A stretch of DNA of 64,000 bases from Mycolicibacterium holsaticum DSM 44478 = JCM 12374. Its GTDB lineage: Bacteria; Actinomycetota; Actinomycetes; Mycobacteriales; Mycobacteriaceae. Under the pieces are notes generated by a model, which ran no database searches, was not told where the DNA came from, and saw only the letters and a program-made list of their open reading frames with translations. The position numbers were made by a program, and so were the translations under genes. Below, piece by piece: positions 44,212 through 49,159 of the stretch (position 1 is its first letter; every line of letters begins with the position of its first letter). The stretch lies in contig NZ_CP080998.1 of assembly GCF_019645835.1 (NCBI RefSeq), positions 620,001-684,000 of the forward strand. Reading direction: 5' to 3'.

Positions 44212-45303
44212 GTGGATTTCACGCCCAACCCGGAGCAGCAGGCTGTCGCCGACGTGGTGACGTCCGTGCTCGATCGGGACAACAGCTGGGACGCGCTGGT
44301 TGCCGGGGGAGTCACCGCCCTTGCGGTGCCCGAACGCCTCGGCGGTGACGGCGTCGGGCTACCCGAGGTGGCCACGGCGCTGACCGAGGTCGGCCGTCAC
44401 GGCACCATCAGTCCCGCGCTGGCCACGCTGGGTCTGGGCCTGTTGACGCTGCGGGACCTGGCCTCCGACGAGCAGCAGGACCGTTACCTTGCCGGGGTGG
44501 CCAAGGGTGCGGTGCTGACAGCCGCGCTCAACGAACCCGGCGCGCCGCTGCCCGACCGGCCCGCGACCGTCCTTTCGCACTCCGCCGACGGCTACCGGCT
44601 CAGCGGCACCAAGGTCGCCGTTCCCTATGCGGGACAAGCAGATTGGATGCTGGTGACCGCCGACACCGGCGTCGCCGTGGTGTCCCCCAAGGCCGACGGT
44701 GTCCAGGTGACCAAAACCCCGGCCTCCAACGGCGGCGACGAGTACACGGTCACGTTCACCGATGCGCAGGTCGACGGGGTGCTCGAGGGCGCGCTGCCGC
44801 GCCGGGTCAACCAGTTGGCGTTGGCAGCGATCGGCGCCTACGCCGCCGGCCTGGTCGCCGGTGCGCTGCGGCTCACCGCCGACTACGTCGCCAACCGCGA
44901 GCAGTTCGGCAAGCCGTTGTCGACGTTTCAGACGGTGGCAGCGCAGCTCGCCGAGGTCTACATCGCCTCTCGCACTTTGACGTTGGTCGCGACGTCGGTG
45001 GCGTGGCGGCTCGCAGAAGGCCGCCCCGATGATCCGCAAGCCGACGAGGATCTCGACATCCTGGGCTACTGGCTGGCCTCGCAGGCGCCCCCGGTGATGC
45101 AGCTGTGTCATCACCTGCACGGAGGTATGGGTATGGACATCACCTACCCGATGGATCGCTACTACTCCACGATCAAGGACCTCACCCGTCTGGTCGGCGG
45201 TCCGTCACACCGCCTCGACTTGGTGGGAGCAGCACTGGGCGAGCGAACGGGCCACGGCCGGACGCCAGGGAACGACGGGAGGCAGGAATGTTCATCGAGC
45301 TGA
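44212..45303 (+). CDS. fadE28: Acyl-CoA dehydrogenase FadE28 (ChsE1-type subunit)
   Basis: FadE28 pairs with FadE29 as an alpha2beta2 dehydrogenase of the three-carbon side chain of 3-oxo-pregn-4-ene-20-carboxyl-CoA. The 363-residue subunit is of the short type and shows YVANREQFGKPLSTFQTVAA and HHLHGGMGMDITYPMDRYY. The start is GTG 44212 after AAGGAGG, 56 bases past cyp125. Its C-terminus runs past the usual end of the family (about 339 residues) with GRTPGNDGRQECSSS and overlaps the start of fadE29 by 16 bases. Confidence 0.92.
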   Translation: MDFTPNPEQQAVADVVTSVLDRDNSWDALVAGGVTALAVPERLGGDGVGLPEVATALTEVGRHGTISPALATLGLGLLTLRDLASDEQQDRYLAGVAKGAVLTAALNEPGAPLPDRPATVLSHSADGYRLSGTKVAVPYAGQADWMLVTADTGVAVVSPKADGVQVTKTPASNGGDEYTVTFTDAQVDGVLEGALPRRVNQLALAAIGAYAAGLVAGALRLTADYVANREQFGKPLSTFQTVAAQLAEVYIASRTLTLVATSVAWRLAEGRPDDPQADEDLDILGYWLASQAPPVMQLCHHLHGGMGMDITYPMDRYYSTIKDLTRLVGGPSHRLDLVGAALGERTGHGRTPGNDGRQECSSS

Positions 45304-46451
45304 CGCCCGAACAAAAGCAGCTGCAAGCAGAACTGCGGGAGTACTTCTCGAACCTCATCTCCCCCGAAGAGGCCAAGGAGATGGAGAAGGACCGCCACGG
45401 CAAGGCGTACCGGGCGGTCATCAAGCGGATGGGCTCGGACGGCAAGCTCGGCGTCGGCTGGCCCAAGGAGTTCGGCGGCCTGGGCTTCGGGCCCATCGAG
45501 CAGTCGATCTTCGTCAACGAGGCGCAGCGCGCCGACGTGCCCCTGCCTGCCGTCACACTGCAGACCGTGGGACCCACGCTGCAGCAGTACGGGACCGATG
45601 CGCAGAAGAAGAAGTTCCTGCCCGGAATCCTCGCGGGCGAGGTGCATTTCGCGATCGGCTACACCGAACCGGAAGCAGGCACCGACCTGGCGTCGCTGCG
45701 CACCAGCGCAGTGCGACACGGCGACGAGTACATCGTCAACGGGCAGAAGGTCTTCACCACCGGCGGGCACGACGCCGACTACGTCTGGCTGGCCTGCCGA
45801 ACGGATCCAGAAGCGGTCAAGCACAAGGGTATTTCGATCCTCATCGTCGACACCAAGGATCCCGGCTACTCGTGGACGCCGATGATCCTGTCCGACGGTG
45901 CCCACCACACCAACGCCACCTACTACAACGACGTGCGGGTCCCCGCGGACATGCTCGTCGGCGAGGAGAACGGTGGCTGGAAGCTGATCACCACCCAGCT
46001 CAACAACGAGCGGGTGATGTTGGGTCCGGCGGGCCGCTTCGCGTCGCTCTACGACCACGTGCACGCGTGGGCTTCCAAGCCGGGCGGCAACGGGGCCGCC
46101 CCGCTCGACCACGACGACGTCAAGCGTTCGCTGGGTGAACTCAAGGCCATGTGGCGCATCAACGAGCTGTTGAACTGGCAGGTCGCCGCATCCGGTGAGA
46201 CCATCGACGTCGCCGACGCTGCGGCGACCAAAGTGTTTGGCACCGAACGGATCCAGTACGCGGGCCGGCTGGCCGAGGAGATCGTCGGAAGGTACGGCAA
46301 CCCGGCAGATCCGGAGACGGCGGAGCTGCTGGAATGGCTCGACAGCCAGACCAAACGGAACCTGGTGATCACGTTCGGTGGAGGTGTCAACGAGGTGATG
46401 CGGGAGATGATCGCGGCCGCGGGCCTGAAGGTTCCGAGGGTGCCGCGATGA
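45288..46451 (+). CDS. fadE29: Acyl-CoA dehydrogenase FadE29 (ChsE2-type subunit)
   Basis: This 387-residue subunit has the same length as M. tuberculosis FadE29. TEPEAGTDLASLRT and VNGQKVFTTGGHDADYVWL contact FAD, and TFGGGVNEVMREMIAAAGLKV is the C-terminal FAD segment. It forms the full-size half of the complex with FadE28. The start is ATG 45288 after GGGAGG, inside the end of fadE28. Its stop (TGA 46449-46451) overlaps the first ATG of the 32-base repeat array by a base pair of ATGA. Confidence 0.93.
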   Translation: MFIELTPEQKQLQAELREYFSNLISPEEAKEMEKDRHGKAYRAVIKRMGSDGKLGVGWPKEFGGLGFGPIEQSIFVNEAQRADVPLPAVTLQTVGPTLQQYGTDAQKKKFLPGILAGEVHFAIGYTEPEAGTDLASLRTSAVRHGDEYIVNGQKVFTTGGHDADYVWLACRTDPEAVKHKGISILIVDTKDPGYSWTPMILSDGAHHTNATYYNDVRVPADMLVGEENGGWKLITTQLNNERVMLGPAGRFASLYDHVHAWASKPGGNGAAPLDHDDVKRSLGELKAMWRINELLNWQVAASGETIDVADAAATKVFGTERIQYAGRLAEEIVGRYGNPADPETAELLEWLDSQTKRNLVITFGGGVNEVMREMIAAAGLKVPRVPR

Positions 46452-46543
46452 GCGCTTGCGCGAAGAGCAGAGGACGCCGATGAGCGCTTGCGCGAAGAGC
46501 AGAGGACGCCGATGAGCGCTTGCGCGAAGAGCAGAGGGCACCG
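46448..46543 (+). repeat. Three tandem 32-base repeats forming a mini-ORF relay before chsH2
   Basis: Three head-to-tail copies of a 32-base unit (46448-46479, 46480-46511, 46512-46543; the third has two changes near its end) fill the gap between fadE29 and chsH2. Each copy begins with ATG and encodes MSACAKSRG followed by two residues, then a TGA that overlaps the ATG of the next copy (ATGA); the last TGA overlaps the chsH2 ATG at 46544. The first ATG overlaps the fadE29 stop. Each unit carries an AGAGG that can act as ribosome binding site for the following ATG. Confidence 0.85.
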
Positions 46544-47506
46544 ATGAGCGTCGACGACATCAAGGCCGCCGCCGAGCGGGTCAAGGCCGAAGGCAAGAGC
46601 AAGCCGCGGGTGGGCCGCCATCCCGTCAACCAGCCGATGATCGAGCACTGGCTCGACGCGATGGGCGACAAGAACCCGATCTACGTCGACGAGGCCGCGG
46701 CGAAGGCGGCCGGTCATCCCGGCACCGTCGCCCCGCCCGCGATGATCCAGGTGTGGACGATGATGGGTCTCGGCGGTGTGCGCCCCGACGACGACCCGCT
46801 CGGCAAGATCATCGAGTTGTTCGACGACGCAGGCTATATCGGGGTGGTCGCGACCAACTGCGAACAGACGTATCACCGGTATCTGCGGGTCGGCGAACAG
46901 GTCAGCGTCACCGCCGAACTGACCGACGTCATCGGTCCGAAGAACACCGCGCTCGGCGAGGGGTTCTTCATCACGCAGAAGATCACCTGGCAGGTGGGCG
47001 ATGAGGATATCGCCGAGATGATGTGGCGCATCATGAAGTTCAGGCCTGCCGACGATCAAGGTGGTGCGGCTAGCCAGGTGCCCGACGATCTGGACGCCGA
47101 CTCGATGATGCGGCCGGCGTCGTCGCGGGACACCAAGTTCTTCTGGGACGGGGTCAACGCGCACGAACTACGCATCCAGAAGCGTCCCGACGGCACGCTG
47201 CAGCATCCGCCGGTGCCGGCGCTGTGGCAGGACAAACAGCAGCCCACCGACTATGTGGTGGCCAGCGGCAAGGGCGCCGTGTTCAGTTTCGTGGTGCACC
47301 ACGCCCCGAAGGTGCCCGGCCGTACCCTGCCGTTCGTCGTCGCGCTCGTCGAACTCGAAGAGGGCGTTCGGATGCTCGGGCAGCTGCGCAATGTCGACCC
47401 CGCCGCGGTGGAGATCGGAATGCCGGTCCGCGCAACGTTTATCGACTTTCCCGAAGGCGATTCAGGCCCGGCCTGGACACTGTACGCATGGGAGCCTGAC
47501 GAATGA
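46544..47506 (+). CDS. chsH2: Steroid enoyl-CoA hydratase subunit ChsH2 (MaoC + DUF35)
   Basis: ChsH2 with ChsH1 hydrates the side-chain enoyl-CoA made by FadE28/29, and its C-terminal DUF35 domain binds the aldolase Ltp2. The 320 residues have a MaoC-like half (to about 180; NQPMIEHWLDAMGDKNPIYV and a Pro/Ala-rich loop PPAMIQVW) and a DUF35 half with FWDGVNAHELRIQKRPDG. The N-terminal half lacks the full hydratase motif, which ChsH1 supplies. The DUF35 zinc-ribbon cysteines appear to be absent. ATG 46544 overlaps the last mini-ORF stop. It overlaps chsH1 by four bases. Confidence 0.93.
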   Translation: MSVDDIKAAAERVKAEGKSKPRVGRHPVNQPMIEHWLDAMGDKNPIYVDEAAAKAAGHPGTVAPPAMIQVWTMMGLGGVRPDDDPLGKIIELFDDAGYIGVVATNCEQTYHRYLRVGEQVSVTAELTDVIGPKNTALGEGFFITQKITWQVGDEDIAEMMWRIMKFRPADDQGGAASQVPDDLDADSMMRPASSRDTKFFWDGVNAHELRIQKRPDGTLQHPPVPALWQDKQQPTDYVVASGKGAVFSFVVHHAPKVPGRTLPFVVALVELEEGVRMLGQLRNVDPAAVEIGMPVRATFIDFPEGDSGPAWTLYAWEPDE

Positions 47507-47916
47507 CGAACAGTGTGAGCACACCGACTGTCGAAGTAGGCGCCAAGCTGCCCGAACTGGCGCTGTACGGCGATCCGACGTTCATCGTGTCGACGGCGAT
47601 CGCGACCCGGGACTATCAGGACGTCCACCACGACCGCGACAAGGCGCAGGCCAAAGGGTCAAAGGACATCTTCGTCAACATCCTCACCGACACCGGCCTG
47701 GTGCAGCGCTACATCACCGACTGGGCGGGCCCCACCGCGGTCATCAAGTCGATCGGTCTACGTCTCGGGGTGCCGTGGTACGCCTACGACACCGTGACGT
47801 TCAGAGGTGAGGTCACCGCCGTCGACGACGGGCTCATCACGCTGAAAATCACTGGCAGCAACAGCCTTGGCGACCATGTCATCGCCAACGCGACGCTCAC
47901 CATCGGAGGTAACTGA
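47503..47916 (+). CDS. chsH1: Steroid enoyl-CoA hydratase subunit ChsH1
   Basis: ChsH1 is the catalytic MaoC-fold partner of ChsH2. The 137-residue protein has the hydratase-2 motif ATRDYQDVHHDRDKAQAKG with the Asp and His of the active site, and ends with a beta strand VIANATLTIGG. It starts at ATG 47503, overlapping the chsH2 stop (ATGA). Its TGA (47914-47916) overlaps the ATG of the next short ORF by one base (TGATG). Confidence 0.93.
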   Translation: MTNSVSTPTVEVGAKLPELALYGDPTFIVSTAIATRDYQDVHHDRDKAQAKGSKDIFVNILTDTGLVQRYITDWAGPTAVIKSIGLRLGVPWYAYDTVTFRGEVTAVDDGLITLKITGSNSLGDHVIANATLTIGGN

Positions 47917-47993
47917 TGCCGCGAAGGCGACCGGGAGTGAGGATCGCAGCGAGGAACGAGCGAGGACCGGAGCGAGCGGGGAGCCGAGCATGA
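47916..47993 (+). other. Short coupling ORF between chsH1 and ltp2
   Basis: An ATG at 47916 overlaps the chsH1 stop. The 25-codon frame, MPRRRPGVRI then AARNERGPERAGSRA, ends in TGA 47991-47993, which overlaps the ltp2 ATG at 47990 (ATGA). The GC-rich spacer is built of GAGCGA-like pieces common between mycobacterial genes. The product is very basic and need not be functional; the value may be in keeping ribosomes moving from chsH1 to ltp2. Confidence 0.55.
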
Positions 47994-49159
47994 GCAAGAG
48001 CGCGCTGTCCGGCAAGGCGGCGATCGTCGGGATCGGCGCCACCGACTTCTCCAAGGACTCGGGTCGCAGCGAGCTTCGGCTCGCCTCGGAAGCCGTTCTC
48101 GACGCGCTCGCCGACGCCGGCCTGACCCCGGCCGACGTCGACGGCATGGTCACCTTCACGATGGACTCCAACACCGAGGTAGCCATCGCGCGCGCGATCG
48201 GCATCCCGGAGCTGAAGTTCTTCTCCAAGATCCACCATGGCGGCGGAGCGGCCTGCGCCACCGTCCAGCAGGCCGCGATCGCGGTCGCGACCGGCGTCGC
48301 GGATTGCGTTGTGGCGTACCGGGCTTTCAACGAGCGCTCGGGTACCCGCTTCGGTCAGGTGCAGATGCGGCTGGTCGAGAACGCCGACTCCACCGGTGTG
48401 GACAACTCGTTCTCCTATCCGCACGGGCTGTCCACACCCGCAGCGCAGGTGGCGATGATCGCCAGGCGGTATATGCATCAGTCCGGTGCCACCAGCAGAG
48501 ACTTCGGTGCGGTTTCGGTCGCGGACCGCAAGCACGCGGCCAACAACCCGAAGGCGTACTTCTACCAGAAGCCGATCACCATCGAGGACCACCAGAATTC
48601 GCGGTGGATCGCCGAACCGCTGCGGCTGCTGGACTGCTGCCAGGAAACCGATGGTGGGGTGGCGCTGGTCATCACCTCCGCCGAGCGGGCCAAAGACCTC
48701 AAACACCGGCCCGCGATCATCGAGGCGGCCTCCCAGGGTTCCAGTGCAGACCAATATTCAATGGTCAGCTACTACCGGCCCGAGCTCGGCCTGCCGGAAA
48801 TGGGGTTGGTGGGTAGGCAGCTGTGGGAGCAGTCCGGTCTCAAGCCGACCGACATCCAGACCGCGATCCTCTACGACCATTTCACGCCGTTCACGCTGAT
48901 TCAGTTGGAGGAGCTCGGCTTCTGCGATCAAGGCGACGCCAAGGACTTCATCGCCGACGGCGCCATCGAGATCGGCGGACGGCTGCCGATCAACACTCAC
49001 GGCGGCCAATTGGGTGAGGCGTACATCCACGGCATGAACGGCATCGCCGAAGGGGTGCGGCAGCTGCGCGGCACGTCGGTCAACCCGGTGCCGAACGTCG
49101 AGCACGTGCTTGTCACCGCAGGCACCGGCGTGCCGACATCGGGTCTGATCCTGGGCTGA
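47990..49159 (+). CDS. ltp2: Steroid side-chain aldolase Ltp2
   Basis: Ltp2 is a thiolase-like protein that cleaves the 17-hydroxy-20-carboxyl-CoA steroid by retro-aldol reaction, giving a 17-keto steroid and propionyl-CoA. The 389 residues have the SCP-x/thiolase fold: AIVGIGATDFSKDSG, KIHHGGGAACATVQQAA (the thiolase nucleophile loop, here an alternative to the usual Cys), and NTHGGQLGEAYIHGMNG. It works with the DUF35 domain of ChsH2. The start is ATG 47990 overlapping the coupling ORF; in-frame codons upstream to 47867 lie in chsH1. Last gene of the cyp125 operon. Confidence 0.94.
   Translation: MSKSALSGKAAIVGIGATDFSKDSGRSELRLASEAVLDALADAGLTPADVDGMVTFTMDSNTEVAIARAIGIPELKFFSKIHHGGGAACATVQQAAIAVATGVADCVVAYRAFNERSGTRFGQVQMRLVENADSTGVDNSFSYPHGLSTPAAQVAMIARRYMHQSGATSRDFGAVSVADRKHAANNPKAYFYQKPITIEDHQNSRWIAEPLRLLDCCQETDGGVALVITSAERAKDLKHRPAIIEAASQGSSADQYSMVSYYRPELGLPEMGLVGRQLWEQSGLKPTDIQTAILYDHFTPFTLIQLEELGFCDQGDAKDFIADGAIEIGGRLPINTHGGQLGEAYIHGMNGIAEGVRQLRGTSVNPVPNVEHVLVTAGTGVPTSGLILG

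Follow-up and report, generated by a model that had tools for sequence, protein, structure and literature searches.

The repeat array between fadE29 and chsH2

The window, by which we mean the whole 64,000-nucleotide stretch of Mycolicibacterium holsaticum DNA analysed here, carries fadE29 (45288..46451), chsH2 (46544..47506), chsH1 (47503..47916), and ltp2 (47990..49159), all on the forward strand. ChsH2 matches the solved ChsH2 chains 4wnb and 6ok1, and the best structure matches of FadE29 (6wy8, 6wy9, and 4x28) are those of an acyl-CoA dehydrogenase; the exact name FadE29 rests on operon order, as does the name ltp2. Between fadE29 and chsH2 lie three head-to-tail 32-bp units, at 46448-46479, 46480-46511, and 46512-46543. 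By direct reading, the first two are identical and the third differs from them at 2 of 32 bases; TRF gave the array a period of 32, 3.3 copies, and 97% matches, the top score among the 19 rows for the window.

Each unit starts a mini-ORF of an ATG and 10 further codons, the TGA of which falls within the ATGA of the following ORF. Thus, the fadE29 stop codon (46449-46451) lies within the ATGA of unit 1, mini-ORF 1 (46448..46483) overlaps mini-ORF 2 (46480..46515), which overlaps mini-ORF 3 (46512..46547), and the ATGA start of chsH2 covers the stop of the last. A Shine-Dalgarno (SD)-like AGAGG (46469..46473, 46501..46505, and, as AGAGGG, from 46533..46537) precedes each following ATG by 6 nt, and the predicted anti-SD pairing energies at the four array and chsH2 starts are -6.4, -7.5, -7.5, and -8.0 kcal/mol, the strongest being that of chsH2, which is supplied by the tail of the last unit. 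The original prediction had described both the three mini-ORF repeats with their AGAGG and a bridge of stop/start overlaps from fadE29 to chsH2; the former agree with the coordinates, TRF, and the computed chain, and the latter could be computed as an ATGA chain from end to end.

Searching the window with an 18-base core, which was derived from the array itself, and allowing up to 3 mismatches gave four matches where 0.27 were expected, three of them being the array; the same search of the whole genome gave 56 matches vs. 11 for the reversed control. Downstream, chsH2 and chsH1 overlap directly by ATGA, and chsH1 and ltp2 are joined by a second relay of different sequence (47916..47993), a 25-codon mini-ORF in GAGCGAG-type repeats that is chained at both ends, by TGATG to the chsH1 stop and by ATGA to the ltp2 start. 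Among the other 77 chsH1-ltp2 junctions, a gap of at least 8 nt occurs only in L050, the mini-ORF of which overruns the start.

Conservation of stop-to-start chaining in relatives

The junction set comprised the window and 79 relatives, the ChsH2 loci being the best 80 of 144 and one, L088, lacking fadE29. Counting as the gene's start any start within 90 nt of that expected, a rule that favours the outcome "linked", with L046 and L114 as examples, fadE29 and chsH2 are chained stop to start at 79 of 80 junctions, and the sole exception, L041, misses by 1 nt. Fifty-three junctions contain no insert, and their genes overlap directly, 47 by -4 and six by -1; at least 8 nt separate the genes in the remaining 27, of which 26 are chained. 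Copy number, which the original prediction thought might tune chsH2 and had proposed to survey in related strains, proved variable among the relatives, with 0 to 4 units present at this junction. Inserts of other kinds are also chained, namely those of 14 nt (L110), 35 nt (L049, L055, and L070), and 56-nt units (L042 and L109); the 125-nt insert of L108 is unlike the repeat and yet is chained.

Three of the 27 junctions (L046, L077, and L114) were set aside for a shuffling test of the other 24, which we term filled. Twenty-three of these are chained, whereas base-shuffling of the inserts (500 trials) left 9.6 chained on average and never more than 14. A random indel of one or two bases per junction leaves, on average, 2.0 to 6.5 of the 24 chained, and a random 3-base indel leaves about 22. 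SD pairing in the filled set was not above that of base-shuffled tails (-7.57 vs. -7.34). Chaining is mixed across the junctions of the operon: chsH2-chsH1 is chained in 81/81 cases and chsH1-ltp2 in 74/78, but fadE28-fadE29 in only 24/77, and we therefore consider it a trait of this part of the operon and not of all its junctions.

Presence of the repeat requires at least 18 changes on a tree of the junction proteins. That tree was built quickly, leaves 18 of its 78 inner branches open, and carries presence labels entered by hand. The row of that tree nearest to the window, L039 (M. elephantis), lacks the repeat. Two close relatives that stand next to each other on the tree, L046 and L044, differ by a 33-base in-frame copy that is seen by eye after chsH2 codon 4 in L046, likely a recent insertion. 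The 56-base form in L042 and L109 contains additional sequence flanked by two CGAAG words, and the 32-base unit could be a deletion product of that form.

Distribution of the repeat across genomes

The 32-base unit had also been suggested as worth seeking elsewhere, and it was found: the 19-base core RTGAGCGCTTGCGCGAAGA has 15 exact copies at nine sites in the 5.6-Mb M. holsaticum chromosome. Of 60 genomes sampled from the genus, 39 contain it, with up to 53 copies in one of them (G027). The reversed-pattern control was zero both in all 60 genus genomes and in the order sample. The order sample has the core in 24/150 genomes, including 16 of the 136 that do not belong to the genus and none of the six that represent other genera within its family; the class sample has it in 6/197, one being outside the order, and the phylum sample in 3/198, every one within the genus. 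The repeat had no match at E 0.01 among the plasmids and phages searched, and the core sequence was not found in the open-access literature searched. An exact 38-mer query over genome contigs also gave no match, but this query was too strict. At sites outside the genus (L247-L267), the core often follows, as judged by eye, stretches like GAGCGAGGACCGGAGCGAG that resemble the chsH1-ltp2 repeat, and in L255 and L259 the core and such stretches stand together in tandem.

These data change the standing of the original prediction, which saw the array as a relay that hands ribosomes from fadE29 to chsH2. Its anatomy stands, and chaining is conserved, including at 26 of the 27 junctions with inserts; the relay is not peculiar to fadE29-chsH2, the repeat being found at numerous operon borders across a large number of genomes. 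Our verdict is that the idea of a purpose-built relay should be replaced by that of an interspersed repeat that respects coupling.

Placement at gene borders

In total, 103 arrays with 184 exact copies were assembled. Their sources were own-genome loci (L009-L038), 30 loci of the 60-genome search, and 75 sites retrieved from 10 genomes; from G013 onwards, array places are those among the matches listed. Intact copies are over-represented in this collection because it was found by the exact core, and coding frames around the arrays were called from GC at codon positions and not by gene prediction. The upstream frame could be called with confidence in 91 arrays, and 70 of these have the upstream stop at position +1 (39) or -2 (31) of the unit. 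At the other end, 60/92 arrays (58/92 by a narrower count) have the stop of the last mini-ORF overlapping a start codon that is in frame with the downstream gene, compared to nine and 12 of 92 when the same overlap is sought in the other two reading frames.

An unbroken stop/start chain runs through 54 of the 76 arrays that could be analysed (27 could not be). Nine of the 22 unchained arrays continue in frame into the downstream gene, and the remainder have gaps or overrun. In 36/76, no stop interrupts the downstream frame within the array, and this includes 27 of the 54 chained arrays, which could therefore use a start further up. Among 58 spacings between copies judged intergenic and with the downstream frame closed, 47 are 2 mod 3 and 46 are exactly 32; three of the 11 that are not 2 mod 3 are 64, i.e., two units. 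Where the array instead stays open into the downstream gene, the spacing is 33 in 12 of 13 cases. In-frame copies of this type give N-terminal peptide repeats of the DERLREEQTGT kind at G000:C1:3835630 (L016-L018) and G000:C1:4042117 (L019); the protein downstream of L019 resembles PurE by eye.

Positions -3 and -2 before the two ends of the repeat agree in 28 and 32 of 49 cases, respectively (19.2 and 20.1 after shuffling; eight positions were tested), a pattern compatible with either microhomology or a short duplication of the target. Among the sites listed (L009-L038 and L119-L223), it also appears by eye that sites beginning with TGATGA tend to have AAGAA and those beginning with CGATGA AAGAG, with exceptions; this pattern suggests two subfamilies.

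Comparison with MIRUs and other repeats

MIRUs, which reportedly go back to Supply et al. (1997), serve for typing. Their unit length is given as 40-100 bp in PMC2734929, and PMC12548453 describes them as apparently mobile elements that insert at start codons and carry their own ORF coupled at -4, translational coupling having been proposed for them earlier. The 32-bp repeat shares with these descriptions its placement at start codons, an internal ORF whose overlap with the next gene, at -4 nt spacing, would couple the two, and a scattered, single or tandem occurrence with variable copy number (15 copies at nine sites here; 0 to 4 at the fadE29-chsH2 junction of relatives). It differs from the published description in its unit length of 32 bp, or 56 bp in the form seen in L042 and L109. 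The portions of PMC9094748 and PMC4255298 consulted contain nothing on MIRU coupling.

In M. celatum (L102), the chsH2-chsH1 junction is occupied by a different repeat that has an 18-codon mini-ORF and belongs to a 53-bp family. This family, GATGCAGAGCGCAGCGATGAGGAGGAGC, we take to be MIRU-like, and it stood in for a curated MIRU consensus in the following comparison. The longest word shared by the 32-bp unit and the 53-bp unit of L232 is 6, and their alignment score was reached by 174 of 1000 shuffles; because of this lack of sequence relationship to the presumed MIRU-like family, we call the 32-base repeat MIRU-like and not a MIRU. The 53-bp core (at most one mismatch) is present in 64/148 genus genomes and absent from that of M. 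holsaticum. Across 60 genomes, its abundance and that of the exact 32-bp core have a Spearman coefficient of -0.60, uncorrected for relatedness; nine genomes have both families, 48 have one only, and three have neither. This inverse distribution looks as if the two families competed for the same sites.

Eleven of 21 sites examined for the 53-bp family are chained and 10 are not. Of its 39 tandem spacings among the matches listed, 18 equal 53 and 21 satisfy 2 mod 3, others ranging from 46 to 55, which makes this family more variable in length than the 32-base repeat. In each family the most frequent spacing (32 and 53, respectively) is 2 mod 3, as is the long form of 56. It is conceivable, although we would not count on it, that the order hosts several unrelated, self-spreading micro-repeat families that have converged on a portable RTGA coupling cassette, which would let them enter the most tightly packed parts of operons without halting ribosomes; the less regular length of the 53-bp family lowers our estimate of this.

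REP and REPIN sequences are short interspersed repeats associated with RAYT (Y1) transposases. The present repeat is likewise short, interspersed, and palindrome-bearing, but differs in having no associated cognate Y1 transposase. PF01797 (Y1) was found in 10 of the 60 genus genomes, and neither in that of M. holsaticum nor in G027, the richest in the repeat; with no association over the 60 genomes, a Y1 transposase was rejected as the mobiliser.

Interpretation and alternatives

We think it probable that the units are a tandem, MIRU-like interspersed repeat that sits on an RTGA coupling site and preserves coupling rather than creating it. The repeat would have settled, by insertion, at the fadE29/chsH2 stop/start overlap and been amplified afterwards. 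A 32-bp unit begins with ATGA, is followed by ATGA, and has a length of 2 mod 3, and every copy thus forms a mini-ORF linked on both sides; it would open in the stop of the preceding ORF, close in the start of the following one, and bring its own SD-like purine tract. Ribosomes finishing fadE29 may then re-initiate on successive mini-ORFs and finally on chsH2. Preservation is indicated by the relatives lacking the repeat, in which the genes overlap directly by -4 or -1, and the insert is presumably tolerated because that coupling, which selection would favour, is kept. Conserved chaining is compatible with coupled re-initiation.

According to PMC4633059, RTGA-coupled small ORFs are over-represented in mycobacteria, and re-initiation after each mini-ORF, as we envisage it, agrees with this and with the statement on MIRUs in PMC12548453. 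The small ORFs of PMC4633059 likewise have a TGA that overlaps the start of the next gene, and their linkage is said there to be under stronger selection than their peptide; as described, they begin leaderless transcripts, whereas the 32-bp units are intra-operon, repeated, and chained. PMC2734929 states that longer tandem repeats upstream of fpg1 accompany higher mRNA in M. tuberculosis, and effects at the transcript level should therefore be distinguished from coupling.

A standard 32-bp copy is bound to be chained by its very layout, and much of the pattern may therefore reflect target choice alone. The repeat might be a neutral hitch-hiker that picks or copies RTGA targets, with the SD of the last unit starting chsH2 and the mini-ORFs idle, and we regard this as possible but rather doubtful. 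The intergenic spacing of exactly 32 in 46/58 cases, the SD-like tract before chsH2 (-8.0 kcal/mol), and the tendency of the two bases before both repeat ends to match are what such an element would leave. Against it, inserts differing in length or origin also chain (L042, L049, L055, L070, L093, L108, L109, and L110), one of 27 failing, and shuffled inserts chain in an average of just 9.6 of 24 cases.

It is improbable that the repeat acts instead through structure, in RNA or DNA, with the hairpin GCG-CUUG-CGC serving as an attenuator or a transposase end. The unit does contain this short palindrome, and a paired change, GGGCTTGCCC, occurs in G008, G033, and L081, but several core variants break the pair, and a degenerate stem pattern gave 22 matches in 16/78 genomes, several of them chance-like, with a few paired and several broken. 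The fold energy is the same as that of shuffles (z 0.03 and -0.35), and a search of 46000-47000 to E 1 gave no Rfam match at the array, there being one sub-threshold narK match at 46053-46120. The presence of a Y1 transposase is also unrelated to that of the repeat (6/39 genomes with it vs. 4/21 without). A likeness of CUGAUGA..GAA to a hammerhead ribozyme was considered by eye and dropped.

That the units are coding and lengthen the ChsH2 N-terminus, e.g., from the TTG at 46520, which does begin an ORF in the ORF list, is very unlikely: although 33-bp-spaced copies elsewhere lie by eye in frame with the next gene (three at G000:C1:3835630) and L046 has its in-frame copy, the chsH2 frame is closed inside the array in the window, and the ATGA start of chsH2 matches the start in repeat-free relatives.

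Significance

To our knowledge, why MIRUs occupy coupled gene borders has so far been answered by a proposal only. With 0 to 4 units, decayed units, foreign inserts, and in-frame inserts, the fadE29-chsH2 junction provides a natural series for tests of a mini-ORF relay. It also calls for caution in annotation, as 11-codon ORFs at operon borders may be stepping stones for translation without any function of the peptide.
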